A stretch of DNA of 12,969 bases from Candidatus Poseidoniaceae archaeon (GTDB lineage: Archaea; Thermoplasmatota; Poseidoniia; Poseidoniales; Poseidoniaceae), in the NCBI GenBank assembly GCA_013330765.1, contig DUHU01000110.1:1-12969 (forward strand), in the 5' to 3' direction. The position numbers and the translations under genes were made by a program. The notes under the pieces are model-generated. The model saw only the letters and a list, made by a program, of their open reading frames with translations, had not been told where the DNA came from and did not search any database. Below, in pieces: positions 1-12,874 of this stretch (its first letter is position 1; each line of letters starts with the position of its first letter).

Positions 1-2395
1 CCGTTGCTGGTGTTCACGTCGGCCAAGGTCACGGTCGCGTCGTTGACCATCACGGTCTCGCCCACGGTGAACGCGAGCGGCTGCCCGTTGACGGCGTCAG
101 CGGACATGCACTCCGTCACCGCACTGGAGGGCACTTCGCCCGCCACGACGTGGTACAGGAGGATGTCCGACAGGGTCGCCTTCCCTTCAGGGGTGTCCAG
201 AGCGGCGAGATCGATGCCGGCGTCTGCAAAGGCCTGGTCCGTTGGCGCAAAGAGCGTGAACGGCCCGTCGCCTTGCAAGGTTTCGAGCAACTCCGCTTGG
301 ACGACGGCCGCGACGAGCGAACCGTGGATGCCCGTGCACTGGGCGGTCCGAGGCAGGTCGTTTGGCGTGTCGCTGGGCGTCAGCACCTTGTCGATGACGT
401 GGATGACACCGTTGCTGGTGTTGACGTCCGCGAGGGTCACGTTGGCACCGTTGACCATCACGCCGTCTCCGACGGTGAAGGCGAGCGGTTGACCGTTGGC
501 CGCATCTGCGGTCATGCAGTCGGTGACGTTGGCGGCCGGAACGGCGGCCCCGACCACGTGGTAGAGCAGGATGTCGGACAGGGTTGCCTTGCCTTCGGGC
601 GTATCGAGGGCCGCGAGGTCAATGCCAGCGTCGGCGAAGGCCTGATCGGTCGGTGCAAAGACCGTGAATGGGCCGTCGCCTTGCAAGGTTTCGAGCAGTT
701 CAGCCTGCACGACGGCAGCGACCAAGGAATCGTGGATGCCGGTGCACTGGGCCGTGCGTGGGATGTCGTTGGGCGTGGCTGTGGGCATCAACACCTTGTC
801 GATGACGTGGATGATTCCGTTGCTTGTCGGCACGTCGGTAGCGGTCACGTTGGCGCCGTTGACCATGACGCCGGTGCCCACGGTGAAGCTCAACGGGTTG
901 CCGTTGACCGTGGTGGCGGACATGCAGTCGGTCACGTTGGAGGCGGGCACGTTGGCACCCACCACGTGATAGAGCAGGATGCCTGAGAGCGTGGCTTGTC
1001 CCTCTGGCGTGTCGAGTGCTGCAAGATCGATGCCGGCGTCGGCAAAGGCTTGGTCCGTCGGTGCGAAGACCGTGAACGGTCCGTCGCCTTCCAGGGTCTC
1101 GAGCAATCCGGCCTGGATCACGGCAGACACCAACGAAGTGTGATTGCCGGTGCATGAGGCCGTGCGGGGAATGTCGTTGGGCGTGTCCGTGGGCATCAGC
1201 ACCTTGTCGATGACGTGGATGACACCGTTGCTGGAGTTCACGTCAGCAAGGGTCACGTTTGCGTCGTTGACCATGACGCCACCGTTGACCGTGAAGGCAA
1301 GCGGCTGTCCGTTGACGGCGTTTGCGGACATGCACTCCGTGACCGCAGACGCGGGAACGTTACCGGCCACGACGTGGTAGAGAAGGATGTCTGAGAGGGC
1401 TTGCTTTCCTTCCGGCGTGTCCAGCGAAGCAAGGTCGATGCCTGCATCGGCGAAGGCTTGGTCGGTCGGTGCAAAGAGGGTGAACGGTCCGGAGCCTTGG
1501 AGCGTCTCAAGCAACTCGGCTTGAACCACCGCGGTCACAAGGGAATTGTGGATCCCCGTGCACTGCGCGGTGCGGGGGATGTCGTTGGGTGTCGCGGTGG
1601 GCGTCAGCACCTTGTCAATGACGTGAATGATGCCGTTGCTGGTGTTCACGTCAGCAAGGGTCACGTTGGCGTCGTTGACCATGACCCCACCGTTGACGGT
1701 GAAGGCCAGCGGTTGTCCGTTGGCGGCGTCCGCCGTCATGCATTCGGTCACGTTCGCGGCCGGCACGTCGGCGCTGACCACGTGGTAGAGCAGGATGTCC
1801 GACAGGGCTGCCTTGCCTTCGGGTGTGTCGAGAGCGCCGAGGTCAATTCCAGCGTCGATGAAGGCCTGGTCGGTCGGCGCGAAGACCGTGAACGGTCCGG
1901 TGCCTTGCAAGGTTTCGAGCAGTTCGGCTTGAATCACGCCCGCCACAAGGGAATTGTGCAGGCCAGTGCACTGAGCGGTTCGGGGAATGTCGTTGGGTGT
2001 GTCGGTCGGCATCAACACCTTGTCAATGACGTGGATCAGTCCGTTTGAGGAAATCACGTCGGTCATGACCACGTTGGCGTCGTTGACCATGACGCCACCG
2101 TCGACGGTGAAGGCCAGCGGCTGGCCGTTCGCGGCATCCGCCGTCATGCATTCGGTCACGTTGGCGGCCGGGACGTCGGCGCCGACCACGTGGTACAGCA
2201 AAATGTCAGCGAGCGTTTGTTTGCCTGCTTCGGTGCTGAAATCGGCCAAGTCAATGCCAGCGTCGGTGAAGGCTTGATCCGTTGGGGCAAACACGGTGAA
2301 GGGACCAGGTCCTTCCAACGTGGACAGCAGTTCAGCCTGAATGACGGCCGCGACAAGGCTGCCGTGAATGCCTGTGGATTGGGCGGTGGTGGGAA
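1..2395 (-). repeat. Tandem 408-bp repeats encoding FAS1 domains 2-7
   Basis: A CCGTT-type anchor recurs at plus-strand positions 1, 409, 817, 1225, 1633 and 2041, an exact spacing of 408 bp (136 codons) with no net indel. The next equivalent, at 2440, is 399 bp away and marks the junction with the divergent first domain. Copies share long nucleotide stretches, not only protein motifs. This implies recent tandem duplication or ongoing gene conversion, and probably copy-number variation between strains. It is also a likely site of collapse in short-read assemblies. Confidence 0.92.
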
Positions 2396-2885
2396 TGTCC
2401 ACCGGCGGGAGCATGACGCGGTCGATCACGTGGATGATGCCGTTGGAGGCTTGAACGTCGGCCGTGGTGACGTTGGCGTTGCTGAGGGTGACGCCGTTTG
2501 CATCAACGCCGAACTGCACACGATCGCCGTTGACGGTGGTCGCAAACATGCCGTCTGTCAGCGCACTGGAGGCCACCGAGCCGGCCACCACGTGGTGGAG
2601 CAAGATGGAGGTCAGCGTGTCGATTTCCTCTTGGGTGTCGAACGTGCTGATGTCGATGCCTGCCTCTGCAAAGGCCGTGTCCGTCGGTGCAAACACCGTG
2701 AAGGGGCCCGAACCCTGCAGGGTGGAGACCAGGTTCGCGGTCGTCAGAGCGTCCACGAGCGTGTTGTGGACGCCTGTTGCCGCAGCATTGGCGGGGATGT
2801 CTTGGGTGGCGTCAGCACTGGCTTGCAGTGGTAGGGTGGACGCCATCAGGATGGCAATGAGCACGAACACGGCGGATTTCTTCAT
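1..2885 (-). CDS. Secreted multi-domain fasciclin (FAS1) protein, C-terminus beyond window
   Basis: This frame stays open from ATG at 2885 to the window edge (961 complete codons, no stop). Residues 1-24 form a signal peptide: Lys2-Lys3, a hydrophobic core, and an ASA|D cleavage site near residue 24. Seven FAS1 domains follow, starting near residues 26, 163, 299, 435, 571, 707 and 843. Each shows FAPTD-x-AF, then LLxHHV or LLYHVV, then SNGxIHVID. The seventh is cut just before its IHVID motif, so the protein continues past the window. FAS1 domains typically mediate adhesion at the cell surface, so I infer an exported adhesin or matrix protein; the ligand is unknown. Domain 1 is the most divergent and has no cysteine, while domains 2-7 are close copies. 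There is no SD site, and a TATA-like element lies 25-32 nt upstream, suggesting a leaderless transcript. Overlapping plus-strand frames are repeat shadows. Confidence 0.93.
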   Translation of the reverse strand, partial: MKKSAVFVLIAILMASTLPLQASADATQDIPANAAATGVHNTLVDALTTANLVSTLQGSGPFTVFAPTDTAFAEAGIDISTFDTQEEIDTLTSILLHHVVAGSVASSALTDGMFATTVNGDRVQFGVDANGVTLSNANVTTADVQASNGIIHVIDRVMLPPVDIPTTAQSTGIHGSLVAAVIQAELLSTLEGPGPFTVFAPTDQAFTDAGIDLADFSTEAGKQTLADILLYHVVGADVPAANVTECMTADAANGQPLAFTVDGGVMVNDANVVMTDVISSNGLIHVIDKVLMPTDTPNDIPRTAQCTGLHNSLVAGVIQAELLETLQGTGPFTVFAPTDQAFIDAGIDLGALDTPEGKAALSDILLYHVVSADVPAANVTECMTADAANGQPLAFTVNGGVMVNDANVTLADVNTSNGIIHVIDKVLTPTATPNDIPRTAQCTGIHNSLVTAVVQAELLETLQGSGPFTLFAPTDQAFADAGIDLASLDTPEGKQALSDILLYHVVAGNVPASAVTECMSANAVNGQPLAFTVNGGVMVNDANVTLADVNSSNGVIHVIDKVLMPTDTPNDIPRTASCTGNHTSLVSAVIQAGLLETLEGDGPFTVFAPTDQAFADAGIDLAALDTPEGQATLSGILLYHVVGANVPASNVTDCMSATTVNGNPLSFTVGTGVMVNGANVTATDVPTSNGIIHVIDKVLMPTATPNDIPRTAQCTGIHDSLVAAVVQAELLETLQGDGPFTVFAPTDQAFADAGIDLAALDTPEGKATLSDILLYHVVGAAVPAANVTDCMTADAANGQPLAFTVGDGVMVNGANVTLADVNTSNGVIHVIDKVLTPSDTPNDLPRTAQCTGIHGSLVAAVVQAELLETLQGDGPFTLFAPTDQAFADAGIDLAALDTPEGKATLSDILLYHVVAGEVPSSAVTECMSADAVNGQPLAFTVGETVMVNDATVTLADVNTSN

Positions 2886-3044: not shown

Positions 3045-3518
3045 ATGGCTTCGATGATCCTTGGATGGACCCTGAACGACGTGACGACCGCCATGGGGTT
3101 GGGCACCACCGAACACCTGCTTCATGCCTCCCTTCAGGCGCAGAAAGAGGCGCTTACGGCGTTGGTGAAAGGCGTCAAAGAACGCCTCCCGGCCGAAGGA
3201 AACGTGGACGTCTGGCTGATGTGCCAGCAGGATTCGTGCTACGACTACCGTGAGCCCGTGGTCATCGGTGCGCCGATGGTCTTTGGAGGAAAAGTACCGG
3301 AAGTCCTCTGGTATCTGGCGCCAAACGAACACGTCCAAGGGTTCCCATCGACCACGACCGTGGCTGACCTCCATTCGATCATGAACGAGGTGTCGCTCAA
3401 CGGGCCTGGAGAACTCCCGTCCCCGACCGTGCACCTTTCAGGGTGGCATGCCGAAGCGGAACGGCTTGCTCCTTTGCTGGGCGTGAGCCAAATCCAAGCC
3501 TCTTCGGAGAGGCTTTGA
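3045..3518 (+). CDS. Uncharacterised 157-aa protein, first gene of lipid cluster
   Basis: I do not recognise this family. The protein is soluble, with no signal peptide or membrane segment. Visible features are a helical, Ala/Lys-rich stretch at residues 22-48, a C60-x4-C65 pair after a predicted strand (VDVWLMC), a Gly/Val-rich central part (72-92), and a His/Trp segment near the C-terminus (H130, W134, H135). ATG 3045 is preferred because the TATA-like element lies 23-28 nt upstream; ATG 3054 would also keep the frame. The last seven codons and the stop overlap a perfect 8-bp hairpin (3496-3515). The gap to the next gene is 25 bp. Strand and proximity suggest a role beside the ketosynthase and desaturase genes, but the hairpin may place it on its own transcript. 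No function can be assigned. Confidence 0.72.
   Translation: MASMILGWTLNDVTTAMGLGTTEHLLHASLQAQKEALTALVKGVKERLPAEGNVDVWLMCQQDSCYDYREPVVIGAPMVFGGKVPEVLWYLAPNEHVQGFPSTTTVADLHSIMNEVSLNGPGELPSPTVHLSGWHAEAERLAPLLGVSQIQASSERL
3496..3515 (+). terminator. Perfect 8-bp hairpin at end of the 3045 gene
   Basis: AAGCCTCT (3496-3503) and AGAGGCTT (3508-3515) are perfectly complementary around a TCGG tetraloop, followed by T3516. The stem lies within the last codons of the gene, directly before its TGA stop. It resembles an intrinsic terminator with a poor U-tract. It could instead be an RNA-processing or stabilising stem between the first gene and the rest of the cluster. Confidence 0.45.
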
Positions 3519-3522
3519 TAAT
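3514..3522 (+). promoter_or_regulatory. Possible internal TATA-like element upstream of GTG 3544
   Basis: TTTGATAAT lies 22-30 nt before the GTG start at 3544, which has no SD site. The spacing matches that of the leaderless promoters at 2885 and 3045. If real, it would start a second transcript carrying the five downstream lipid-cluster genes, immediately after the hairpin. The consensus match is imperfect. Confidence 0.3.
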
Positions 3523-3543
3523 TGGGAACGTCGACGGCTAAAC

Positions 3544-4143
3544 GTGGACCCGACGGTTGATGCCAGTACCATTGTGCTGAACATCTTGCTGTACGTGCTT
3601 CTTCCGTTGTGGGTCGTGGCCGGCGGTGTCGATTGGTTTTGCCACCGGGCCACCAACATCGAATCGTCAGCAGGGCTCCGCGAAGCGCTTGTTCACGCGG
3701 TCATGGGCGTTCAGGTTGGCATTCCAATCCTTCTTGGCTTGATGTTCGAAGTCAACGTGCTGGTCCTCATCATGTGCATTCTGGCCTTTGTTGCCCATGA
3801 ATTGGTGGCACATTACGACGTGAAGTACGCCAAAGACTTGCGCGAAATCAGCATCTGGGAAACCCATGCGCACAGCTACCTGGCCACCCTTCCGTTCTTC
3901 ATCATCCTGCTCATCGTCGTGCGCCGCTGGGAGACGTTCATCGATTTCATCACCCTCAACTGGGCCGGCAGCATGCATTTGCAGTGGCGGGAGGAGTCCC
4001 TGGGCGTCAACGGTAATTTCGCAGTGGGGTACATCTTGTTCATGCTGGTGTTCGGAGTCATGCCGTACCTGTCCGAAATTTACCGCTGCTGGAAATGGGA
4101 GCGCGACAACGGAGTCTCGACTTTGCCTTGGAGGAATTCATGA
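3544..4143 (+). CDS. Uncharacterised 5-TM membrane protein with conserved-looking His/Asp/Glu pattern
   Basis: This 199-aa integral membrane protein has hydrophobic segments at about residues 9-27, 51-68, 69-88, 113-127 and 159-176. Polar residues cluster at membrane boundaries: D30-W31-x2-H34, E40, H51, then H85-E86, H90, D92, and further on E106, H108 and H110. Such His/Glu sets occur in membrane metalloenzymes and cytochromes, so I infer possible iron or heme binding, perhaps as an oxidase, hydroxylase or electron donor to the desaturase encoded downstream. I cannot name the family. The GTG start is chosen because it is the first usable start in an otherwise open frame and sits at TATA-like spacing; no SD site is present. 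The stop overlaps the ketosynthase start (ATGA), indicating translational coupling. Confidence 0.78.
   Translation: MDPTVDASTIVLNILLYVLLPLWVVAGGVDWFCHRATNIESSAGLREALVHAVMGVQVGIPILLGLMFEVNVLVLIMCILAFVAHELVAHYDVKYAKDLREISIWETHAHSYLATLPFFIILLIVVRRWETFIDFITLNWAGSMHLQWREESLGVNGNFAVGYILFMLVFGVMPYLSEIYRCWKWERDNGVSTLPWRNS
4130..4134 (+). promoter_or_regulatory. Shine-Dalgarno site fixing the ketosynthase start
   Basis: GGAGG lies 5 nt before ATG 4140, inside the end of the membrane-protein gene. It supports ATG 4140 over the in-frame ATG at 4095, which would add 15 residues unlike a ketosynthase N-terminus. Confidence 0.75.
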
Positions 4144-5285
4144 TGACGCCCGTGTACATCACGTCGACCGGGTGGCATCTGCCGGGCCCGGCCATCTCAA
4201 ACGATCAGGTGGAAGTCGTGCTGGGGGCAGTGAACGGGAAACCTTCTGGCCTTCGAGCACAGATTCAGAAGGCCAACGGCATTCAAACGAGGCACTACGG
4301 CATCGACGCCAACCAACAAACCACGGTTTCAAACACCCAAATGGCGGTCTTGGCCGGGCAAGAATGCATGGACCGGGCCTTCCGACCCATTCACCAAGTC
4401 GGCATGCTCGCCGTTGCATCCACGCAAGGTGATCATCCCGTTCCGGGACTCGCGTCCTTCGTTCAGGCCGGCTTGGGGATGGCTGAAGTTGAAATCCTCA
4501 CGGCGCAATCCATCTGTTCCTCGTCGATGATGGCGCTCAAGGGCGCCTGGTTGGCCTTGCGGTGCGATGAGCACGAAGCGGCGCTCGTGGTTGCCACCGA
4601 GATGCCTTCGCGGTTGCTGAAGCGGCAGCGGTACGAGGCCGCGACGGAATCGACCTTCGCCAAGAAAACCGTGGACTTCAACACCGAATTCCTTCGTTGG
4701 ATGCTCTCCGATGGAGCAGGTGCTTTGCTGTTGGAGACGGCACCCCGCCCGAAGGGTCTCTCGTTTCGAATCGACTGGATGAAGGGGTGGTCGCATGCGC
4801 ACGCTCTCCCGACATGCATGAGCGTTGGATCCAGCGGCAAGGCCGAAGAGGACCGCACGTGGCAGGACTACGAGACCTACGCGGACGCAGAGCGTGACGG
4901 GGCCTTGCTGCTCCGGCAGGAGGTTCGCCTGCTCGATCATATCGTCCGCCTCGGCGTGGACGGATACGTTCGCCTGGTTCAGGAGGGCCTGAACGTGCCC
5001 TCCGAAGTGGACCATTTCTTGTGCCACTACTCGTCCCATCATTTCCGACCAAAAATCCTCGACATGCTCGATGCCGCTGGCGTTGGCATTCCCGATGAGA
5101 AATGGTGGACCAACCTCTACACCCGAGGAAACACGGGTGCAGCATCTTTGTTCATCATGCTCGACGAGTTCGTGAGGACACAGAACCCGAAGGTCGGGGA
5201 ACGCATCCTGTGCTTTGTTCCAGAAAGTGGACGTTTCAACACGACGTACATGCATTTGACGGTGGTGGACAGCGATGGACGGTAA
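4140..5285 (+). CDS. 3-oxoacyl-ACP synthase III-like ketosynthase (StlD/DarB-like)
   Basis: This 381-aa thiolase-fold condensing enzyme would join an acyl-thioester to a malonyl- or beta-keto-thioester, or condense two acyl chains. The KAS III triad is visible: nucleophile Cys126 (QSICSSS), His296 (FLCHYSS) and Asn331 (GNTGAAS). The N-terminus has the beta-strand opening VYITSTGWHLP, followed by INGK-like VNGKPS and NGIQTRHYGID. These resemble StlD/DarB ketosynthases, which make dialkylresorcinol precursors in bacteria. This is a recalled resemblance, not an alignment. The start at ATG 4140 is set by GGAGG and overlaps the upstream stop (ATGA). The 3' end overlaps the next gene by 11 bp. No acyl carrier protein gene is visible nearby, so the substrate may be a CoA ester. 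Alternatives include an OleA-type head-to-head condensing enzyme. Confidence 0.86.
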   Translation: MMTPVYITSTGWHLPGPAISNDQVEVVLGAVNGKPSGLRAQIQKANGIQTRHYGIDANQQTTVSNTQMAVLAGQECMDRAFRPIHQVGMLAVASTQGDHPVPGLASFVQAGLGMAEVEILTAQSICSSSMMALKGAWLALRCDEHEAALVVATEMPSRLLKRQRYEAATESTFAKKTVDFNTEFLRWMLSDGAGALLLETAPRPKGLSFRIDWMKGWSHAHALPTCMSVGSSGKAEEDRTWQDYETYADAERDGALLLRQEVRLLDHIVRLGVDGYVRLVQEGLNVPSEVDHFLCHYSSHHFRPKILDMLDAAGVGIPDEKWWTNLYTRGNTGAASLFIMLDEFVRTQNPKVGERILCFVPESGRFNTTYMHLTVVDSDGR

Positions 5286-6018
5286 GATTGAGATTGACGG
5301 AGTTCCGGTAAAAGAAGCAGCAGAAGCCATCGGCGCCAACGACGTACCGGACCTTGGCGACGTTGCGCAAGACGCGCTCCGGCGCTTGCTTCGCGTGTGG
5401 ATCGGCTTCGAGCGCGACCTCGTGACCGTACCGCTCCTCCGCCGCCTCGACCTCGGCACCTACACGCTGGCTGACCATCGCCGCCTCCTCGTCAATTTGC
5501 GTCAACAAGTGGTCGAAGGTTCCCGTTGGATTGCTCGAGCGGCCTCCTCCATGGACCGCGACCACAGCGAATTGCGCTCGATGATCCTCAGGCACGCGGT
5601 GGACGAGCACCGGGACTACACCATGCTCGAGCAAGATTACGTCAACGCAGGAGGCGAGTTGGAGGCCATCCTCAACCGCGGGAAAAACGTGGGCAGCGAA
5701 GCCTTCCACGCCTTCATGATGCAACGCGCGAGCCAACCCAATCCTGTGGACATGCTTGGCGCGATGTGGATCATCGAAGGCCTCGGTGAGCGGATGGCCA
5801 CTGGCTGGGCCACGCGCATGGAAGAACTGTGCGAGCGCGAGGGCATCACACGCTTCATGACCTACCACGGCGCCAACGACGACGATCACATGCAACGTTT
5901 CTACGCCATGCTGGACGAAGTGTGCGTCGACGTTCACGTGGTCGAACGCATTGAAATGACTGCGAAGGTGGTCGCGCGCTTGTACCGGCTGCAATTGGAG
6001 GAGTTGGAGGATGAGTAG
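5275..6018 (+). CDS. Heme-oxygenase-fold putative non-heme iron enzyme
   Basis: The 247-aa all-helical protein resembles the iron-containing redox enzyme group (heme-oxygenase-like fold; relatives include TenA, PqqC, CADD and the 1-undecene synthase UndA). Likely metal ligands are H107, E111 and H112 in the segment RHAVDEHRDYTMLE, E168 in WIIEGLGE, and H198-x3-D202-x2-H205 near residue 200. The last matches the HxxxDxxH spacing of known members, so a diiron or mono-iron oxygenase is plausible. Beside a ketosynthase and a desaturase, it could oxidise or decarboxylate a fatty-acyl product. The start overlaps the ketosynthase stop by 11 bp, with GGTGGTGGA upstream. There is no signal peptide or TM segment. 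The reaction is inferred, and a non-enzymatic TenA-like role cannot be excluded. Confidence 0.72.
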   Translation: MDGKIEIDGVPVKEAAEAIGANDVPDLGDVAQDALRRLLRVWIGFERDLVTVPLLRRLDLGTYTLADHRRLLVNLRQQVVEGSRWIARAASSMDRDHSELRSMILRHAVDEHRDYTMLEQDYVNAGGELEAILNRGKNVGSEAFHAFMMQRASQPNPVDMLGAMWIIEGLGERMATGWATRMEELCEREGITRFMTYHGANDDDHMQRFYAMLDEVCVDVHVVERIEMTAKVVARLYRLQLEELEDE

Positions 6019-6907
6019 CACTGCTCGCATGGAGCGACGTCGTCGAAAAGCGATGTCGAGAAACAACGGGCGCATGCCTGCGTCCATCGTCGATGCGATG
6101 GCCAGCGACGAGGCCCTGCCGCTCGACCCCATCGCCAAGGAATATTGGACGAAGGACCTGCAAAACCCGCTCCGTCGAATCGTGCTACCGACGCTCAAAG
6201 TCCTGTTGACCATCACCCTCCACATCACCTACTACCTCAAGCGGCTCTCGCCCATTCAGTGGCGCGCTCATGGATTCTTGCAGTGGCAGATTTGTTTCTT
6301 CATGAAGTGGTTTGTTCGCCCTGAAGCCAACGTCCTCATCCTCCGCCACTTTTGGGCCGAATCCAACCTGCTGAATTTCGTCATTGACAACGCGGGCCAG
6401 GAGGAAGTCGACCCCGTCCTGATTCATCCGAAGATGATTCGAGACCTGATGGTCCAGACCTTTGTCCACCACGACCAAGGCGTCTTGATGACGATGCGTG
6501 ACCTGACGGAACCTGACCGGTCACGCTGGCCTGTACCCAAGGACGAATTGTCGTGGTCCAACTGGAAACCGGTCCGCATCGATTACGGCATTGAACGCAA
6601 AAAGTGGACCCAATTCCTCGATTTTGAGACCGCACATGAGCTGTTCAAAACCACGTTTTGCTTCTGGTTGACGGCCCCGGAATACGAGGCGGCCATCAAC
6701 TCCTTCCAATTTGATCACTCGATCGGTCTGCTGATTGACGACATCGTCGGTGCGAGCCACTTTGCTGACATCGCGTACAACCGCTTCCCGATGATCCTCG
6801 TTGGGCCCAGCGGTCTTAGTTACCGGTTCCTGATGCACGGTTTCTTCGTGGAGCACACACATGGACACCTCGAGCGCATGCGTGCTGAGCTCGGCATGGA
6901 GAACTGA
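6011..6907 (+). CDS. Uncharacterised His-rich 298-aa protein of the lipid cluster
   Basis: I cannot place this protein in a family. A basic N-terminus (residues 9-22) precedes a hydrophobic stretch at 57-76 that may be a single TM or interfacial helix. The remainder is rich in aromatic and acidic residues. Potential metal ligands are E105, H113, E117, H153-H154, an E206-x2-H209 pair of the kind used in diiron proteins, D235-H236, D243-D244, H276, and a C-terminal cluster E281, H282, H284, H286. It may therefore be another iron enzyme or a partner of the heme-oxygenase-fold protein encoded just upstream. ATG 6011 overlaps that gene by 8 bp and follows purine-rich GGAGG sequences. The next gene begins 2 bp after its stop. 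Co-translation with the ketosynthase and desaturase makes a shared pathway likely; the reaction is unknown. Confidence 0.8.
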   Translation: MSSTARMERRRRKAMSRNNGRMPASIVDAMASDEALPLDPIAKEYWTKDLQNPLRRIVLPTLKVLLTITLHITYYLKRLSPIQWRAHGFLQWQICFFMKWFVRPEANVLILRHFWAESNLLNFVIDNAGQEEVDPVLIHPKMIRDLMVQTFVHHDQGVLMTMRDLTEPDRSRWPVPKDELSWSNWKPVRIDYGIERKKWTQFLDFETAHELFKTTFCFWLTAPEYEAAINSFQFDHSIGLLIDDIVGASHFADIAYNRFPMILVGPSGLSYRFLMHGFFVEHTHGHLERMRAELGMEN

Positions 6908-6909
6908 GG

Positions 6910-7737
6910 ATGGAACTTTCCACGCTCCTGTGGATGGGTGCCCTCCTCCTCGTCTGGTACCTCTCCGTCGGCTTTGGGGTCACCGTGGCCTACCACCGGG
7001 TGCTTACCCACCGTTCGGCCAACCTCAGCAAACCGTTGCTTTACGCCCTTGTGCTGGCGGGATTGCCCGCAGGTCCGCCTGCGGAATGGGTCGGCAACCA
7101 TCGAAGGCATCATGCCGATTCGGACGGCCCCAACGACCCGCACAGCCCGGTGCATGACGGGTTTTGGTACGCACACTGTGGCTGGTACCTCGGCATTCGA
7201 AACCGGGGCGTGTGCTTTCTTTACGCGGTCGGAGGACCTCTTCGGTACGTGCTCGACATGTGCCTTCGCCAAATGAGCCCAGGCGGGCATGACGCTCGGG
7301 CCAAAGACGTGCTCGAAGACCGTGTGCTTCGTTTTCTATCGACCCGTTTCGGCTACTTCCTCGGCTCATTGGTCCACATCCTTCCGTTTGTGTTGGCGTA
7401 CCTGCTGATGGAATGGGACGGCGTCCTGATCGCTTGGGTCGCCGGGGTCGTCTTCTACAACGCCGGTGACGCAGTCAACTCCGTCGGTCACATTTGGGGC
7501 AGGCAGGATTTTGCCGGCTCCAGCGAAGCACGAAACAATCCGCTGGTGGCGTTGATTTCGCTCGGTGAAGGATGGCATTCCGGGCATCATGCCTTCCCAC
7601 GTTCAGCTCGGCATGGGTTGCTGAAAGGACAGATCGACCTGTCCTACATGCTTCTTCGCGGCTTGTCTGCCGTTGGTTTGGCTTCGGACATCCACCTTCC
7701 AACCGGCGAGGACATCCACGGCCGTCAACGCCCTTGA
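6910..7737 (+). CDS. Membrane fatty-acyl desaturase (delta-9 acyl-CoA desaturase family)
   Basis: This 275-aa integral membrane diiron desaturase would introduce a cis double bond into an acyl chain held as a CoA, lipid or ACP ester. All histidine boxes are present: H29-x4-H34 (HRVLTH), H64-x2-H67-H68 (GNHRRHH), H223-x2-H226-H227 (WHSGHHAFP), plus N190-SVG-H194, the extra ligand region of this family. Hydrophobic segments at 5-22, 42-57, 152-167 and 169-185 bracket the boxes. The size suits the short bacterial form without a fused cytochrome b5, so a separate electron donor is needed. ATG 6910 lies 2 bp after the upstream stop with GAGG adjacent. It is the last gene of the tight cluster; 68 bp separate it from the next gene. 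Regiospecificity cannot be read from the sequence. Confidence 0.92.
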   Translation: MELSTLLWMGALLLVWYLSVGFGVTVAYHRVLTHRSANLSKPLLYALVLAGLPAGPPAEWVGNHRRHHADSDGPNDPHSPVHDGFWYAHCGWYLGIRNRGVCFLYAVGGPLRYVLDMCLRQMSPGGHDARAKDVLEDRVLRFLSTRFGYFLGSLVHILPFVLAYLLMEWDGVLIAWVAGVVFYNAGDAVNSVGHIWGRQDFAGSSEARNNPLVALISLGEGWHSGHHAFPRSARHGLLKGQIDLSYMLLRGLSAVGLASDIHLPTGEDIHGRQRP

Positions 7738-7805: not shown

Positions 7806-9020
7806 ATGGGAGCCATCGCCAATCACCGGTGGTGGCGCTCCACCAAGGCTGCACGTCGTGAATTGATGCCTCAACGCGAGGTGCGCTCTTGGAAGGCGGA
7901 ACACGCCGTCGGTGCGGCCGTCAAGCGCATGACATGCACGAAGCACGTGCATTTGGCCATCCGGATTCCCGACCCAGACCGTCCTCGTGGCTCGGGTGAG
8001 GTCGACGTCATCGCCATCACGGACCGGGCCGTGGTCTTGCTTGAAGTCAAGAATTGGGGCGGAGACGTCCACCTCCAAGACGACGACTTGGTCCAGCAAC
8101 GCCTGCTCGACAAGGGCGAACCCCCCAAACCAGTCATCGGAAAACTGCGCGACAAAGTCCGGATGCTGCAACGTAGTTCACAGTCCATTGATCAGGTCGA
8201 GATGCTGGAGGTGCTTCCCATCGTCGTGCTCGCCAACCCTCGGGGCAACCTCAGCGACGAGGTCCTCGCCCATCCTGAAGTCTCCACTGTGGCCGATTTG
8301 CCAAAGAAAATTGAGGCCCTTTTGGCGTCGCGTGAACCTGCTTCAGACGAGGAGTTGGCTCGACAGGACGCGCTCCTCCGCCGTTTTGGTACGTGGGACG
8401 TCCTGACCTTCGACGGCGGTCAACGCCACACGGGTGACCTCATCGATGACGACCTCCCTGACGGCTGGACCCGCGCCGACCACACGGCCATCGAGGTCGC
8501 CGTTGAAGGAGGATGGTTGAGCACGTTATTTCGTGGCCCACGGCTCAACGTCACCTTCCACCGCCGGGACGGCTCGAAGGTCACGGAGGACATGACGCCA
8601 GGCCTGACCGTTCGGCACACCCAACCGTGGGACGATTCAGGCATCGACGGCAAAGGCACCTACCCGATCGAGCATGTTCGCAAGGTGCTCTTCGGCAACG
8701 AAGCAAAGTTTCGCTGGGAGGACGTGCCCTCTCCCGAGGGGGACGGGGGTGCAGCCGAGGGCCAAGATCTCCTCGAGGGCTTCGAGGTCGGAGGAACGTA
8801 CACGGGCACGGTGGTGAACCACCAAGGTCGGAAGAAGGACGATTTCCACGGCCTGTTGGTCACGTTGGTTGAGCGCAAGGTGACCGGGATGATTCACATC
8901 TCAAAGATGGACGGCATGGACATGGATCACATCGACATGTTCTATGCCATCGGCAAGACGGTTGAGGTTCGCATCTTGAGCATCAAGGGCCCAAAGCGCA
9001 TCGACCTTGACTTCGCATGA
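7806..9020 (+). CDS. NERD nuclease-domain protein with C-terminal S1 domain
   Basis: The 404-aa soluble protein has two recognisable ends. Residues ~28-130 form a NERD (nuclease-related) domain, a PD-(D/E)xK-like fold: GEVDVIAI with D67, then E80-V-K82 in VVLLEVKNWGGDV provide the acidic-x-Lys active-site signature. Residues ~323-404 form an S1/OB domain (VGGTYTGTVVNHQ, MIHISKM, IGKTVEVRIL), which usually binds RNA or ssDNA. The middle (~170-315) is not recognised. The pairing suggests an RNA- or nucleic-acid-guided nuclease, or an enzyme acting on structured nucleic acid; this is inference. ATG 7806 is chosen from TATA-like spacing; ATG 7866 is a possible later start that still keeps the NERD domain. 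The gene is convergent with the HugZ-like gene, with 27 bp between stops. Confidence 0.8.
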   Translation: MGAIANHRWWRSTKAARRELMPQREVRSWKAEHAVGAAVKRMTCTKHVHLAIRIPDPDRPRGSGEVDVIAITDRAVVLLEVKNWGGDVHLQDDDLVQQRLLDKGEPPKPVIGKLRDKVRMLQRSSQSIDQVEMLEVLPIVVLANPRGNLSDEVLAHPEVSTVADLPKKIEALLASREPASDEELARQDALLRRFGTWDVLTFDGGQRHTGDLIDDDLPDGWTRADHTAIEVAVEGGWLSTLFRGPRLNVTFHRRDGSKVTEDMTPGLTVRHTQPWDDSGIDGKGTYPIEHVRKVLFGNEAKFRWEDVPSPEGDGGAAEGQDLLEGFEVGGTYTGTVVNHQGRKKDDFHGLLVTLVERKVTGMIHISKMDGMDMDHIDMFYAIGKTVEVRILSIKGPKRIDLDFA

Positions 9021-9048
9021 CCGCAAGGCAGCGGGCATCCGCGGTCAT
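9017..9048 (+). terminator. Inverted repeat between convergent genes
   Basis: ATGACCGC (9017-9024) and GCGGTCAT (9041-9048) are perfect complements around a 16-nt loop. The left arm contains the TGA stop of the NERD-S1 gene and the right arm contributes to the opposing TGA stop of the HugZ-like gene. It could act as a bidirectional terminator, but there is no U-tract and the stem is only 8 bp, so chance is a real alternative. Confidence 0.3.
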
Positions 9049-9908
9049 CATTCCATGGCCTTGCGGGCAGCAACGACGCTGTTGATGATCTCTGTGCGCA
9101 TCGAGTCGGCACTGATCCTGTGTTCGAAGGAAACGTACAGCAAGCCAGCTGGACTTTGCGTTTCGAGCATCATCCCGTTTGGATCAAGCCCAACCATATG
9201 CACCGTTTCAGCCTCGACACCGCGGTGCCCTTTGGCAATGGCCACCATGGCATCAACGTGATCGTCGTTCATGTGTTCGATGGCACCAGGCGCGGCTTCC
9301 ATCAGCGCGTTGTCGGCGACGGACTCCATGTACCGTCGACCTGGAATCCAGCAGATTCGACCAAAACCGGCGATGTATCGGATGCGTTCGACGGTGCTCA
9401 TCCGGTAGAAACTGAAGTTGTGGACGTTGACGTAGGATTCAGCCGCAGGCACGCGTTCGACGTACCGTGCCAAGAGATGAGCATGCTCCTCCTCGCTGAC
9501 GCGATCGATGCCGTGTTCAGGATGTTCGCTCTCTTTCCCTTCAACGACGATTCGGCGCATTTCACCAAGCAAGCAAGCTCTCCAACTGGATTGCGGGTCT
9601 CCTTTGGCCGCGGGATCAGAGATGAACAACGAAGCACGGGGATCGGCATTGATGTTACGAGTGTGGGCGGCAATGTCGGCCACCAAAATGAACGGGCGGC
9701 CATGTTCGTCCAGCGCGAAGGGGGTGATGGACCCAATCGGGAACCCTTCGATACCCTGCTTGACGGCGAGGGTTGCAAACGTCGCCGCATGCGTCGAATG
9801 AAGCCATTGGGCCACGTTGGCCGAGGGGTCTTCCCCGTCATGGGCTTCACGGTGTGCGTCCTTCTCTGCTGTGGCGTCGGCGTGTTGGTTGTCTGTGTTC
9901 TCGCTCAT
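9048..9908 (-). CDS. HugZ-like heme-utilisation protein: FMN split-barrel plus DUF2470
   Basis: This 286-aa cytoplasmic protein belongs to the pyridoxamine-phosphate-oxidase-like split-barrel superfamily. An acidic, His-rich tail (1-30) is followed by the barrel (~35-190), with a HugZ-like opening around ATFATLA and the segment SFYRM...GFGRICWI. A DUF2470 domain then covers ~207-284 (IEHMNDDHVDAM, VGLDPNGMML). HugZ-type proteins bind heme and degrade it to free iron. It ends the ABC transporter operon, starting 2 bp after the ATPase stop. ATG 9908 is preferred over a TTG at 9914 because AGGTGAT lies 5 nt upstream. Coupling to the transporter supports breakdown of imported heme, although some family members bind other ligands or FMN. 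Confidence 0.82.
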   Translation of the reverse strand: MSENTDNQHADATAEKDAHREAHDGEDPSANVAQWLHSTHAATFATLAVKQGIEGFPIGSITPFALDEHGRPFILVADIAAHTRNINADPRASLFISDPAAKGDPQSSWRACLLGEMRRIVVEGKESEHPEHGIDRVSEEEHAHLLARYVERVPAAESYVNVHNFSFYRMSTVERIRYIAGFGRICWIPGRRYMESVADNALMEAAPGAIEHMNDDHVDAMVAIAKGHRGVEAETVHMVGLDPNGMMLETQSPAGLLYVSFEHRISADSMRTEIINSVVAARKAME

Positions 9909-9910
9909 TG

Positions 9911-10732
9911 TCAATCACCTTCGTGTCCATCGTTTGGTGGAAAGGATTCCACCTCGTCATGCACATGAATCCTCAATCGTCCGTCGGTCGGTGCAACGTC
10001 GACGGTGCAATCGACCATGAATACCTTGGCGAGGTTTTCTTCCGTCAGCACCTCTCGGGGTGAACCCACCGCCTCGACCTTTCCTTCGTGAAGCAACACG
10101 ACACGGTCAGCAAAACTTGCAGCGACGTTGAGATCATGCATGACTATGACAGCCCCTCGGTTTTCATCGTCATCAACCACTCGGCGAATGCGCTTCATGA
10201 CACCAATTTGGTTGTTCAAATCCAAATCGCTGGTGGGTTCATCAAGCAGCAGCAGTCGAGCCTCCTGAGCAAGGGCCTTGGCCAGAATGACCTGCTGGCG
10301 TTCACCTCCTGAGAGTTGTGTAAACTGACGGAATGCGAACTCACTGAGCCCCAGCAAGCTGAGCGTGTTCGAGGCGATGTCGACGTCGCGGTCGCTCAAA
10401 CGCCAGGTCACGTGCGGCCGACGGCCGAGCAGCACGACGTCGATGACACGCATTGGAAAGGCACTGGTGATGCTCTGCGGCACGTAGGCCGTGCGTTTTG
10501 CGCGTTCGATGAGACCCATCGTCTCCAAGGAATCTCCGCCCACCAACACCGTGCCGCCATCAGGAGAAAGCAACCCGTTGAGCATTCTCAACAGGGTTGT
10601 TTTCCCTGCTCCGTTCCGGCCCAACAACGCCACAACTTCACCGCTTGAAACGGCAAGATCGACGCCGTCCAGCACGGGCCGTTCGCCCCAGGAAAAGCGA
10701 AGGTCAGTCGCTTCGAGCAAAGTGGTCCTCAT
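9911..10732 (-). CDS. ABC transporter ATPase, iron/heme/B12 importer type (HmuV/FepC/BtuD-like)
   Basis: The 273-aa cytoplasmic nucleotide-binding subunit powers import through the permease encoded upstream. All ATPase motifs are intact: Walker A GRNGAGKTT (38-46), Q-loop Q86 (YVPQS), signature LSGGERQQ (140-147), Walker B LLLLDEP (160-166), D-loop SDLD and switch His199. The ~15-residue C-terminal tail is acidic. ATG 10732 overlaps the permease stop as ATGA, with GGAGG 8 nt upstream. The 3' end is followed within 2 bp by the HugZ-like gene, pointing to heme as the cargo. From its sequence alone, cobalamin or ferric siderophore remain possible. Confidence 0.93.
   Translation of the reverse strand: MRTTLLEATDLRFSWGERPVLDGVDLAVSSGEVVALLGRNGAGKTTLLRMLNGLLSPDGGTVLVGGDSLETMGLIERAKRTAYVPQSITSAFPMRVIDVVLLGRRPHVTWRLSDRDVDIASNTLSLLGLSEFAFRQFTQLSGGERQQVILAKALAQEARLLLLDEPTSDLDLNNQIGVMKRIRRVVDDDENRGAVIVMHDLNVAASFADRVVLLHEGKVEAVGSPREVLTEENLAKVFMVDCTVDVAPTDGRLRIHVHDEVESFPPNDGHEGD
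9914..9920 (-). promoter_or_regulatory. Shine-Dalgarno site for the HugZ-like gene
   Basis: On the minus strand this reads AGGTGAT, complementary to the usual 16S rRNA 3' end, with a 5-nt spacer to ATG 9908. It overlaps the stop region of the ATPase gene, implying translational coupling, and decides between ATG 9908 and TTG 9914. Confidence 0.75.
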
Positions 10733-11769
10733 GCGCTTTGCCTCCGCATCAACAGAAGGTAGAGGAAAAAGGGCCCTCCCAGCACCGAAAGCATCACCCC
10801 GACGGGCAACACTACGGGTGCGAACAGGGTTCTCCCAATGGTGTCTGCAACGAGCAAGACCGCGGCACCCATGACCGCGGAGGTGGGAATCAAGACGCGG
10901 TAATCGTTGCCCACCAAAATCCGTGCAATGTGGGGCGCAACCAAGCCAAGAAAACCGATGATTCCGGTGAAGGCAATGACCACCGCGGTCAGTGTCGCGG
11001 AAAGGATGAGGATGGAACGACGGGTGGATCGTGGGTCAACGCCCGTAGAGGCGGCAAAATCGTCACCGCCCACCGCCAGCGTGTTCAAATCCCACGCCGC
11101 CCGCAACCCCGAAGGCAAGAGGGCCAAGACAAACAGACCGATGAGCGACGCTTGCTGCAGGTCCGGACGGGAGAGGCTGCCAAAACTCCAATGCGTGAGC
11201 TGTGAGATTTGGGCATCGGTGGCAAAATATTGCATCGTTTGAACGACGGCTCCGGCAATGAACGTGATCGCGATACCGACCAAAATGTAGGATTCGCTGG
11301 TGACGTTTGACATGTCGCCGAGTTTGATGATGATGGCCACCACCAGCATGGCGAAAATGAACGCGTTTCCAAGGATGGCCAATTCAGGCGCGCCGAAGAT
11401 GGCCACGTCGAGGACGATAGCCAGGGCTGCCCCAAGGCCTGCGCCCGAAGCAACCCCCAAGGTCAGCGGTGAAACGAGTGGATTGCCCAGAACGCCTTGC
11501 ATCATGGTCCCGGCCATGGCCAGGGCTGCCCCTCCAGCAAGCGCGATCAGCACCCGTGGCAATCGCAGGTTGATCAGTATCTCACGTTGGAGGCCTTCAG
11601 GCGACTGAAATCCGAAAAGAATCCCAAGCGTGGTTCGCATGGAAAGATCATCCGATGAACCGAACCCCATGGCAAGGACGGCACCAAGAGCGGTCATGAG
11701 CGAGGCCATCAGCAGGAAGAAGGTGCGCTGGCGTTGTCCGTCAAGGTAGGCCTTGGCCACACCTTCCAT
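10729..11769 (-). CDS. FecCD/BtuC-family permease of iron/heme ABC importer
   Basis: The 346-aa membrane subunit has roughly ten hydrophobic helices, typical of the FecCD/BtuC family that forms the dimeric channel for siderophore, heme or cobalamin import. Family hallmarks are NLRLPRVL near the N-terminus, GNPLVSPLTLGVASGAGLG, and FLGLVAPHIARILVG near the coupling region contacting the ATPase. Length is normal. ATG 11769 lies 1 bp after the binding-protein stop and has AGGTGA 5 nt upstream, so it is preferred over the in-frame GTG at 11778, for which that SD would be abutting. The 3' end overlaps the ATPase start by 4 bp. Substrate is best inferred as heme from the HugZ-like gene in the same operon. 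Confidence 0.93.
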   Translation of the reverse strand: MEGVAKAYLDGQRQRTFFLLMASLMTALGAVLAMGFGSSDDLSMRTTLGILFGFQSPEGLQREILINLRLPRVLIALAGGAALAMAGTMMQGVLGNPLVSPLTLGVASGAGLGAALAIVLDVAIFGAPELAILGNAFIFAMLVVAIIIKLGDMSNVTSESYILVGIAITFIAGAVVQTMQYFATDAQISQLTHWSFGSLSRPDLQQASLIGLFVLALLPSGLRAAWDLNTLAVGGDDFAASTGVDPRSTRRSILILSATLTAVVIAFTGIIGFLGLVAPHIARILVGNDYRVLIPTSAVMGAAVLLVADTIGRTLFAPVVLPVGVMLSVLGGPFFLYLLLMRRQSA

Positions 11770-11770
11770 G

Positions 11771-12874
11771 TCACTCACCTGTCATCGTGCAGAGGAACGT
11801 ACCGGTCCGATCGACGGAGAAATGGTCGGTGTAAAAGCCGTCCAACAGCGCCTCTCCTGCCCCTTCTTCAAACCGCTCAGGATGGAATTGCTCGGCGATA
11901 AACGGCAGTCCGTGGACCATCATTGGACCGGCGAATGCACCTGAAAAGATGAGCAGGTGATCGTTTTCGACGGCCTGCATGGCATCAAAGCCGGGACGGC
12001 TTTGGATGAGGTTGAAATGTTCAGTGCATCCGTTTTTGGGATCGTTCAGGTCATAGCCAAGTTCGAACGTGATGCCGTCAAACATCATGACGTCTGGGTT
12101 TTCGTTAAGGATGGCCTCCATGTCGACGTGCGTCGTATGCCCGGGCAGGTCGCTGAACACGTTTTGACCCCCTGCGATTCGAATGATGTCGTCCCATTGC
12201 GACGAGCCGGTCAACACCACGGGGTCCCGCGTCAGCGAGGCATGATGTTCCATGACCACGGCAGGGCGTCCGGCCTCGTCGAGGTCTGCCAAAGCGGTGG
12301 CCATGACGTCTTCGATCGCATCGAATTCTTCCATGAGGTCCTCGTATGCATCCATTTTGTCCAGCATCAGAGCCAATTGGTTGAATTCTTCTCGCAACGC
12401 GTCGTACTTGTAGAAGTCGAACGCGACGACGTCAATGCCAAGCGGAGCCAACCGGTCGCGGATGGCCGCAGTGTCGACCATGCCGTTGGTTGCGAACACC
12501 ACGTACACGTCTGGACGAACGTCGAGAAGGGCCTCATAGTCGATTTCAGAGTGTGCTGAAAATTGGACCCACGGAAGATCCACAAGTTCAGGCCAGAGCG
12601 TTTCATCGCTGAAATCACCGCTGATTCCGACCACGGAACTCATGTCCGCATCGAGCATTTTCATCGCGGTCGCCCCGAACGTGTTTGAGACCACGATGCG
12701 TTCGGGGGGTGCATCGAAGGTGTGTACCGCCCCGGTCGTGTCGGTTACGGTGATGACCCCTTCACCTTCCGGTTGACGGGCATCGTTGACGATGTTGACC
12801 ATCGCGTAGGCCAAGACCAACAAGACCACGATTTGGACTGCTGTGAGCGCCTTGCGGGCCTCGAGCCCGCTCAT
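11771..12874 (-). CDS. Membrane-anchored solute-binding protein of iron/heme importer (class III SBP)
   Basis: The 367-aa extracytoplasmic receptor captures the substrate and delivers it to the permease. A single hydrophobic helix (residues 11-29) forms an uncleaved anchor or signal sequence; there is no lipobox Cys. The FhuD/BtuF/HmuT-like fold follows, with first-lobe motifs VTVTDTTGAVHTFDAPPERIVV-like around residues 41-62, YEALLDVRPDVYV near 113-125, a long linking helix (~157-200), and second-lobe DMEAILNENPDVMMF (251-265). Two cysteines (C283, C362) could pair. Ligand residues cannot be assigned; H210, H211, H246 and H249 are candidates for heme-iron contacts. The ATG at 12874 overlaps the stop of the upstream partial gene (ATGA), and the permease begins 1 bp after this stop. 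Confidence 0.9.
   Translation of the reverse strand: MSGLEARKALTAVQIVVLLVLAYAMVNIVNDARQPEGEGVITVTDTTGAVHTFDAPPERIVVSNTFGATAMKMLDADMSSVVGISGDFSDETLWPELVDLPWVQFSAHSEIDYEALLDVRPDVYVVFATNGMVDTAAIRDRLAPLGIDVVAFDFYKYDALREEFNQLALMLDKMDAYEDLMEEFDAIEDVMATALADLDEAGRPAVVMEHHASLTRDPVVLTGSSQWDDIIRIAGGQNVFSDLPGHTTHVDMEAILNENPDVMMFDGITFELGYDLNDPKNGCTEHFNLIQSRPGFDAMQAVENDHLLIFSGAFAGPMMVHGLPFIAEQFHPERFEEGAGEALLDGFYTDHFSVDRTGTFLCTMTGE
11775..11780 (-). promoter_or_regulatory. Shine-Dalgarno site for the permease
   Basis: AGGTGA on the minus strand, with a 5-nt spacer to ATG 11769. It lies inside the last codons of the binding-protein gene and decides against the in-frame GTG at 11778. Confidence 0.7.

Follow-up and report, generated by a model that had tools for sequence, protein, structure and literature searches.

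The core of this locus is a cassette of four genes, encoding in order the protein g2, a ketosynthase (KS), a haem-oxygenase-fold protein (HO) and DUF6999, which is shared between Poseidoniaceae archaea and bacteria. From the predicted enzymes we infer a product that is likely a lipid of the dialkyl-cyclohexanedione, resorcinol or quinone type. The window (the whole stretch of DNA that was analysed) is 12,969 nt long, and all six ORFs of the original prediction are present in its ORF list, on the + strand at 3045..7737 (Table 1). The six genes are real and linked, but the conserved unit is the four from g2 to DUF6999; the desaturase gene is exchangeable and g1 is lineage-specific. The close spacing described for the last five genes agrees with the coordinates. 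When the first ATG of the KS gene is taken as its start, it shares a 4-bp ATGA overlap with g2; KS and HO overlap by 11 bp, HO and DUF6999 by 8 bp, and 2 bp separate DUF6999 from the desaturase. No cluster of the same make-up was found in the open-licence literature, in line with the prediction that this one was undescribed.

Table 1. Genes of the cassette region, with positions in the window.
Gene	Coordinates	Strand	Assignment	Basis or role
g1 (157 aa)	3045..3518	+	Companion without a family	Lineage-specific, outside the core
g2 (199 aa)	3544..4143	+	Predicted membrane helical bundle	Core gene
g3 (KS)	4140 (or 4143)..5285	+	StlD/DarB-type ketosynthase	NF005293 match, triad
g4 (HO)	5275..6018	+	Haem-oxygenase fold, probably a dinuclear-iron oxidase	Weak PF14518 match, profile matches
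g5	6011..6907	+	DUF6999 (PF22523), all-helical	PF22523 at 1.8e-85; core gene
g6	6910..7737	+	Type A membrane fatty-acyl desaturase	PF00487 (FA_desaturase) at 2.5e-17; exchangeable tailoring gene

A scan for DUF6999 alone returned 76 loci, and 75 of these carry all four core genes in the same order; the single exception is truncated by the end of its contig. Because the order recurs in 75/76 loci, the linkage is not due to chance. The loci come from Poseidoniaceae archaea, from Gammaproteobacteria and from one Myxococcales metagenome-assembled genome (MAG), and named carriers include Rheinheimera, Arsukibacterium and Pseudoalteromonas. Thus the cassette is no archaeal oddity. Among the archaeal relatives, where 41 genomes matched, KS and HO adjoin DUF6999 in 31/31 loci, a set that partly overlaps the 76-locus scan (same contigs). 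In a sample of 398 Pseudomonadota genomes they do so in 9/9 loci, and these include the locus of the centre genome, which had been selected as a carrier beforehand. Wherever DUF6999 had enough flanking DNA, KS and HO were always adjacent to it, in both domains of life, and in the main cassette type g2 was there as well. Co-occurrence in related genomes therefore holds for g2-KS-HO-DUF6999 and not for g1 (4/84 loci) or for the desaturase, which is exchanged or absent. Pairwise distances of the four core proteins correlate across 69 loci (r 0.87-0.96), a range that relatedness alone would also raise.

More distant Pseudomonadota carry a second form of the cassette. In 6/7 loci, KS and HO are a single ORF of 626-655 aa that adjoins DUF6999, and g2 was not found in this fused type. 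An apparent triple fusion of KS, HO and DUF6999 (locus L147) was rejected, with DUF6999 lying in another, overlapping frame; the KS-HO fusions stand. Using the Myxococcales DUF6999 as query brought no new named group among the best 120 of 514 proteins.

The membrane desaturase was correctly predicted to have complete His boxes, with HRVLTH, HRRHH and HSGHH legible in the g6 translation. Its presence varies between loci. Across 44 archaeal loci, a type A desaturase lies just downstream of DUF6999 in 11, type B in 22 and none in 9, and the remaining 2 stop at the contig end. No desaturase match was found in 31/32 bacterial loci of the main cassette type. The Myxococcales locus L087 has a type A desaturase (41% identity) upstream of g2, and in the distant Pseudomonadota a desaturase adjoins in 6/7 loci. 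The archaeal type B enzyme is 44-49% identical to the desaturase that neighbours the KS-HO fusion in 5/6 of the Pseudomonadota loci; in the sixth (L149) the identity is 33-41%, in pieces. Members of an ABC ATPase cluster lie at scattered distances from the cassette, in 3 loci from archaea and 7 from bacteria.

The KS had been described as KAS III-like, and its nearest family proved to be StlD/DarB rather than generic KAS III. The best NCBIfam model is the StlD/DarB model NF005293, matched over its full length at 2.1e-107; the nearest model outside that family is the KAS III model PRK09352 (3.6e-24), fabH scores 5e-16, and we rejected a generic KAS III or FabH identity. A catalytic triad of Cys125, His295 and Asn330 aligns in place with that of StlD in the profile alignment, and all three residues belong to the set conserved in at least 98.5% of 84 KS copies. 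The score of 359.5 bits lies under the family cut-off of 450, as does that of the Pseudoalteromonas KS (372.1 bits). By its sequence, then, the KS is a relative of the StlD/DarB family rather than a certified member, and its reaction may therefore differ. StlD/DarB enzymes make cyclohexanediones and resorcinols. The archaeal KS sequences form one clade in the KS tree (support 100/100), and StlD/DarB-like KS also occur away from the cassette, in 9/10 plasmid records.

The HO protein was originally called a putative iron enzyme with the heme-oxygenase fold, a fold that sequence profiles of its homologues support. The window copy scores below the PF14518 cut-off (1.6e-4, 22 bits against 28.9), and two fused homologues exceed it (2.4e-9 and 4.5e-8). 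Profile searches matched 3dde (1.4e-9) and MboA (9ypi, 0.0033), and the HO of Vibrio weakly matches CADD (1.5e-4). A haem-oxygenase-like fold is thus predicted for this protein. Nine residues (E81, H107, E111, D114, E142, E168, H198, D202 and H205) are in the set conserved in at least 98.5% of 82 HO copies. Like the HDO enzymes CADD, UndA, MboA and SznF, the protein keeps an HxxxDxxH motif plus carboxylates. The canonical HDO site has six metal ligands, three of them His and the others Asp or Glu (PMC13185094). Aligned with MboA, E111, E168, H198, D202 and H205 fit five of the ligand positions; in our reading of the alignment the sixth, the first-helix His (MboA His89), falls on D114. H107 might substitute for this missing His, and we consider g4 probably a dinuclear-iron oxidase. 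It differs from the known HDO in this aligned Asp and in having a ketosynthase as its partner. HO-like proteins occur away from the cassette in 3/4 plasmid records.

Together, the KS, the HO-fold enzyme and the desaturase support the acyl-chain chemistry that had been proposed, for which an alkene, a ketone or a resorcinol-type lipid had been named as product. A linear product would arise if the KS formed a beta-keto acid or thioester by joining chains head to head (as OleA does) or extending one, the HO decarboxylated or cleaved it in the manner of UndA to leave a long-chain ketone or alkene, and the desaturase added double bonds. UndA, an HO-fold oxidase, produces terminal alkenes from free medium-chain fatty acids, and a KS-HO fusion would suit the immediate processing of a beta-keto product. 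The KS, however, is far closer to StlD (solved structure 5gk0, 1.8e-71) than to 3row and 4ku3 (about 1e-3), two 'synthase III' structures that we take to be OleA, and we regard a linear product as unlikely. Because the KS is nearest to StlD/DarB, the resorcinol-type option is favoured over an UndA-like alkene.

Three proteins had been listed as unrecognised. This still describes g1 and g2, which have no match in Pfam or NCBIfam, and no longer g5, which is DUF6999. Homologues of g1 (58-67% identical, upstream of g2) were found in only four of the 84 loci searched (L107, L108, L109 and L115). The AF2 model of g2 (pLDDT 89.6) places helices at 7-36, 44-67, 72-96 and 104-127, with no confident fold match in a structure search. 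Each of the four helices bears a (D/E)xxxH pair (D30/H34, E47/H51, E86/H90 and E106/H110). All eight residues are invariant in 25 cassette copies, H90 is not kept in a stand-alone homologue, and a metal or haem site is possible. Relatives of g2 occur away from the cassette in 21/22 plasmid records. The AF2 model of DUF6999 (pLDDT 82.8) gave no significant match in a fold search, no paper on the family was found in the open-licence literature, and for neither DUF6999 nor g2 did we find a relative with a known function.

The prediction of an archaeal host stands, and the kin of the sequence are Ca. Poseidoniaceae. A mis-binned bacterial contig was considered and rejected: near the archaeal cassettes lie one gene family that includes DNA polymerase DP2 (17 loci) and another that includes ribosomal protein S13 (14 loci), with one member of each family identified. 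The window contains neither an ACP nor a ketoreductase, as originally noted, but this does not extend to the genomes. In a 59-genome sample, PP-binding matches were found in 42 relatives, including 35/35 of the host family. The one such protein examined in detail, from Poseidoniaceae, is a PfaA-like KS-AT-ACP-KR-DH megasynthase, so that the host family has acyl carriers in the genome though they are absent from the window. Its best whole-protein match is TIGR02813 PfaA (867.8 of a cut-off of 1010.1), and its neighbours include a phosphopantetheinyl transferase as well as an SDR of the enoyl-reductase type. These features recall PfaABCD; the host megasynthase differs in scoring under the PfaA cut-off and in lying elsewhere in the genome, and would be a supplier at most. 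No description of an archaeal megasynthase, or of fatty-acid synthesis in Poseidoniales or Marine Group II, was found in the open-licence literature, and PMC3098273 makes no mention of archaea.

Acyl-CoA dehydrogenase was found in 59/59 relatives and also in 9/14 control genomes. Thiolase was found in 21/21 relatives and cannot be used as evidence of beta-oxidation because 14/14 control genomes were also positive. The data do not support a PUFA synthase as the usual partner of the cassette: PfaA exceeds its cut-off in just 3/20 carrier genomes (2 Shewanella and the Myxococcales). Matches below the cut-off are uninformative, since 20/20 carriers and 11/14 control genomes have one.

The cassette could instead modify membrane fatty acids, with the KS priming or branching the chain, the HO, DUF6999 and the desaturase adding oxygenated, acetylenic or cyclic groups, and esterification following. 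The linked desaturases would fit such a role, as would a fatty-acid hydroxylase (PF04116) linked in 5/7 of the distant loci and the ability of the HO-fold oxidase MboA to produce alkynes (PMC13185094). According to PMC6461757, Poseidoniales MAGs are without the archaeal glycerol-phosphate backbone enzyme, and G3P dehydrogenase is present in every genus except one. The same paper, however, takes the dehydrogenase to mean that archaeal ether lipids are built on G3P, and not that acyl lipids are made. Apart from the desaturase, no neighbour of the four genes was constant among the gene clusters listed. We hold this account to be quite unlikely.

For the ring lipid, we propose the following route. 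Host acyl machinery would supply acyl or beta-ketoacyl thioesters, from the PfaA-like megasynthase and/or beta-oxidation in Poseidoniaceae and from ordinary fatty-acid synthesis in bacteria. The StlD/DarB-type KS would join, and probably cyclise, two chains to a 2,5-dialkyl-cyclohexane-1,3-dione. The HO iron enzyme, beside or fused to the KS, would then oxidise this product with O2, for example converting it into a resorcinol or quinone by aromatisation or hydroxylation of the ring. DUF6999 would carry out a subsequent step (such as oxidation, transfer or release), g2 may be the membrane anchor of the complex, possibly with a metal site of its own, and the desaturase would unsaturate one chain. 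The end product would be a dialkyl ring lipid that is soluble in the membrane. We give this order of events slightly less than an even chance.

The known systems closest to this route are DarA/DarB and StlC/StlD. The cassette KS is nearest to the same family at full length, with the Cys-His-Asn triad, and its substrates are likely acyl chains. It differs in its score below the family cut-off, and the cassette differs in its partners: no DarA-type aromatase was recognised among the adjacent gene clusters, which were compared without a DarA profile, and in its place stand the HO (fused to the KS in some bacteria) and DUF6999, accompanied in the main type by g2 and frequently by a desaturase. Elsewhere the aromatising step is done by DarA. 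On the same terms, the clusters listed showed no fifth gene apart from the desaturase that was a constant neighbour in archaea and bacteria alike. A match to NF053538 in the Myxococcales locus L131 was not taken as DarA: the label of the model names something else, and the ORF, in our judgement, resembles a beta-keto acid cleavage enzyme. A 321-aa protein beside the KS in L042 has no family match, and no annotated DarA was present in the Bacteroidales and Streptomyces plasmid regions that carry a StlD/DarB-like or KAS III-like KS. The whole might be a DarA-independent route to dialkyl ring lipids (resorcinols or quinones), with the cyclohexanedione made by the KS passing straight to its fused or separate HO partner for aromatisation or hydroxylation and DUF6999, as a new enzyme family, completing the product; it would be fed by the megasynthase in the archaea and would have been transferred as one unit between the two domains; we think this conceivable, though on the improbable side.

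A dialkylresorcinol or cyclohexanedione could also be a diffusible signal or a redox-active small molecule rather than a membrane lipid. StlD/DarB products act as signals in Photorhabdus, and the patchy distribution of DUF6999 (41/292 genomes of the host class) would suit such a role. Set against this, no regulator or transporter was constant in both domains among the clusters listed, and we consider a signal very improbable.

The named carrier strains (Rheinheimera, Arsukibacterium and Pseudoalteromonas) bring the product within reach of laboratory work, and the KS-HO fusions provide a construct for testing the proposed chemistry. DUF6999 and g2, families with no known function, now have a chemical context. 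Together, the cassette and the acyl megasynthase suggest that Poseidoniaceae make their own acyl-derived lipids and point to a specific class to seek.

The six open reading frames lie on the plus strand at the positions of the original prediction, and its overlaps (4, 11 and 8 bp) and 2-bp gap agree with what we find. Neither g1 nor g2, a predicted membrane protein, has a match in Pfam or NCBIfam. The ketosynthase (KS, g3) scores 359.5 bits against the StlD/DarB family of the dialkylresorcinol/cyclohexanedione pathway, under the cut-off of 450; the next-best model outside StlD/DarB reaches 3.6e-24, and the solved StlD structure 5gk0 matches at 1.8e-71. The protein on the upstream flank is perhaps secreted and adhesive. 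The haem-utilisation and transporter genes adjoin this iron-enzyme cassette in an order conserved in two related loci (L107, L109) and not in a third (L115).

Family matches in the window (cassette and its flanks) and in a related genome
Feature	Location	Strand	Assignment
g3		+	ketosynthase; best NCBIfam family StlD/DarB NF005293, 2.1e-107, residues 4-375
g4		+	Haem_oxygenas_2 (Pfam, 1.6e-4, under cut-off)
g5		+	DUF6999, PF22523 (Pfam, 1.8e-85)
g6		+	FA_desaturase (Pfam, 2.5e-17)
Upstream flank	window 1-2885	-	seven-fasciclin-domain protein (Pfam)
Downstream flank	window 7806-9020	+	single protein with NERD (nuclease-related) and S1 RNA-binding domains
Iron-related genes	window 9048-12874	-	PPOX/HugZ-like haem-utilisation protein and iron-type ABC transporter operon (substrate-binding protein by Pfam; ATPase and permease by reading of the sequence)
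Megasynthase	L127:4740-15250 (genome G007)		PfaA-like, 2,941 aa; KS, AT, second KS-type stretch, ACPs, KR, DH

Judged by gene order, g2, KS, the haem-oxygenase-fold protein (HO, g4) and DUF6999 form a unit. Scanning the contig collection with a DUF6999-only alignment (five archaeal sequences and one from Pseudoalteromonas) and two peptide patterns returned 76 loci (44 in archaea, 32 in bacteria), which are not independent cases, many coming from the same few genera. The four genes are consecutive on one strand in 75 of them (g2 is partial at the contig end in L089); at the exception, L114, the contig end cuts the locus inside the HO gene. A Pseudoalteromonas plasmid record (THAF3, L041) also has all four. 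DUF6999 occurs in 41 of 292 genomes of the class, including nine of the 59 archaeal relatives, and KS and HO stood beside it in all 31 of those 41 loci that were examined, which overlap in part with the contigs of the 76-locus scan. Strong KS matches (E < 1e-40) were found in ten of the 59 relatives: the nine DUF6999 carriers and G003, whose contig stops inside KS. Nine of 398 sampled Pseudomonadota carry DUF6999, all with KS and HO adjoining; one of the nine is the sample's centre genome, picked as a known carrier. Among fourteen well-known control genomes, DUF6999 was present in one, Caulobacter vibrioides. No DUF6999 without KS and HO was met among loci with enough flank, in scans that start from DUF6999 and are blind to how often KS, HO and g2 occur on their own. 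Of the plasmid records that carry a KS, HO or g2 relative, 9/10, 3/4 and 21/22 respectively are other than the THAF3 cassette, and these relatives are mostly distant. The first gene, g1 (157 aa), turned up only in four closely related loci. At four loci (L061 and L062 for DUF6999, L055 and L065 for HO) the longest open reading frame is shorter than the tblastn match, and we therefore regard these as interrupted frames or sequencing errors.

Seven distant Pseudomonadota loci, with DUF6999 about 25-32% identical, show that KS and HO can be a single protein. This fused type lay beyond the reach of the two-pattern scan. One open reading frame of 626-655 aa encodes both in six of the seven (L144-L149), and the two are separate in L150. 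A desaturase adjoins in the same six and a fatty-acid hydroxylase (PF04116) in five of the seven; g2 had no match at any of them. The fused-type desaturase is 44-49% identical to the archaeal type B in five of six cases (33-41%, in pieces, in L149). Following DUF6999 in the 44 archaeal loci are type B in 22, the window's type A in eleven and no desaturase within 400 bases in nine, one of which (L078) has only 536 bases left; the remaining two stop at the contig end. A type A desaturase (41%) lies directly upstream of g2 in a Myxococcales locus (L087), and none was matched in the other 31 bacterial loci of the 76-locus scan or in L041. Gene neighbourhood ties the desaturase to the cassette in the majority of archaeal loci and in a single bacterial type. 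Since archaeal loci have type A, type B or neither and the gammaproteobacterial type lacks a match, it is a recurrent but exchangeable partner, missing from the latter. Besides the core, only two of the neighbour families listed are common to archaeal and bacterial loci: the desaturase (nine archaeal loci and one bacterial, as clustered there) and an ABC ATPase (three archaeal and seven bacterial, at scattered distances).

Across the 69 loci in which all four core proteins are complete, their pairwise distances are correlated (0.87-0.96 overall, 0.71-0.94 among archaeal loci and 0.89-0.97 among bacterial ones), values that host relatedness by itself also lifts. A tree of KS (79 rows) places the archaeal copies in a single clade (100/100), which Myxococcales adjoins with weak support (91/66, flagged as long branches). 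The simplest account is a single transfer between the two domains and vertical inheritance afterwards; any direction given to it would be inferred. The window is the entire contig C275 of a 1.55-Mb genome that is 60% complete. In other archaeal carriers two gene families lie near the cassette, named here from their identified members: DNA polymerase DP2 for a cluster of 17 archaeal loci, ribosomal protein S13 for one of 14. These neighbours place it in archaeal chromosomes and so rule out contamination as its source.

KS Cys125, His295 and Asn330 align with StlD and belong to the set conserved in at least 98.5% of 84 copies. The conserved set of HO (82 copies) comprises E81, H107, E111, D114, E142, E168, H198, D202 and H205, and its H198-x3-D202-x2-H205 spacing is that of CADD, a haem-oxygenase-like dinuclear-metal oxidase (HDO). 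According to PMC13185094, canonical HDO ligands are three His and three Asp/Glu, and those of MboA are H89, H172, H181, E86, E143 and D176. On a profile alignment that assumes an inferred 25-residue numbering offset, HO E111, E168 and H205 fall on these MboA ligands and MboA H89 falls on HO D114. From this alignment and the CADD-like spacing, it is plausible that HO has five of the six ligands, with the sixth altered. The DUF6999 model is all-helical (pLDDT 82.8) and gave no usable fold match in a structure search. The g2 model, of high confidence (89.6), has four helices with one (D/E)xxxH pair each, all invariant in 25 cassette copies, suggesting a putative metal or haem site on one side of the helix bundle.

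Our main argument for the KS product being the substrate of HO is the direct KS-HO fusion. We prefer a ring over a linear ketone or alkene, which we consider an unlikely product, chiefly because of the kinship with StlD/DarB. In the ring-forming route that we tentatively favour from the sequences, KS would condense and cyclise acyl substrates, HO would oxidise the product immediately and DUF6999 would carry out a further step; the HO-fold oxidase could stand in for the DarA aromatase. The cassette is close in logic to dialkylresorcinol biosynthesis, rather than a demonstrated member of it. The KS family, the HO superfamily and the desaturases are already known; the literature searched gave no description of the gene combination or of the functions of DUF6999 and g2.

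Relatives of g2, apparently a wide membrane family, are found on plasmids of Pantoea, Erwinia, Burkholderia, Azospirillum and others, and some of them bear the annotation 'diguanylate cyclase'; no cassette genes lie in the single neighbourhood examined (L043:4944-5495). Two Bacteroidales plasmids (L130:6355-8125, L133:7406-9131) carry a lone StlD/DarB-like KS right behind a TetR-type regulator, and their annotation shows no DarA in the vicinity. A Streptomyces linear plasmid (L042:7718-17116) has an ACP, a StlD/DarB-like KS, a 321-aa protein, an FAD oxidoreductase, FabF, a P450, a second ACP, FabG and an F420 oxidoreductase, which looks like another lipid pathway.

PP-binding domains are present in 42 of the 59 relatives (one to five per matching genome), including all 35 of the window's family, and in 11 of 14 control genomes, as expected of a common domain. 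The matches listed, the window's own genome among them, fall in open frames about 1,100 to 3,050 codons long. The megasynthase of G007 neighbours an enoyl-reductase-type SDR and a phosphopantetheinyl transferase; its best whole-protein match is TIGR02813 PfaA (867.8 bits, under the cut-off of 1010.1). A region of G018 (L128:4305-14750) has similar open reading frame sizes. In the window's own genome, one contig (C98, L126) bears a KS stretch together with ACPs, KR and DH, and another (C245) a PfaA-like KS. Acyl-CoA dehydrogenases occur in 59/59 relatives. PMC6461757 reports fatty-acid degradation in all Poseidoniales genera and absence of the archaeal glycerol-phosphate backbone enzyme. It also reports a G3P dehydrogenase in every genus except one, and the authors interpret this as a sign of ether lipids built on G3P. 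Given the PP-binding and megasynthase genes, the dehydrogenases and the degradation reported there, the host should have acyl thioesters available, on ACP or otherwise. A PfaA-like megasynthase in an archaeon suggests that these archaea synthesise acyl chains de novo.
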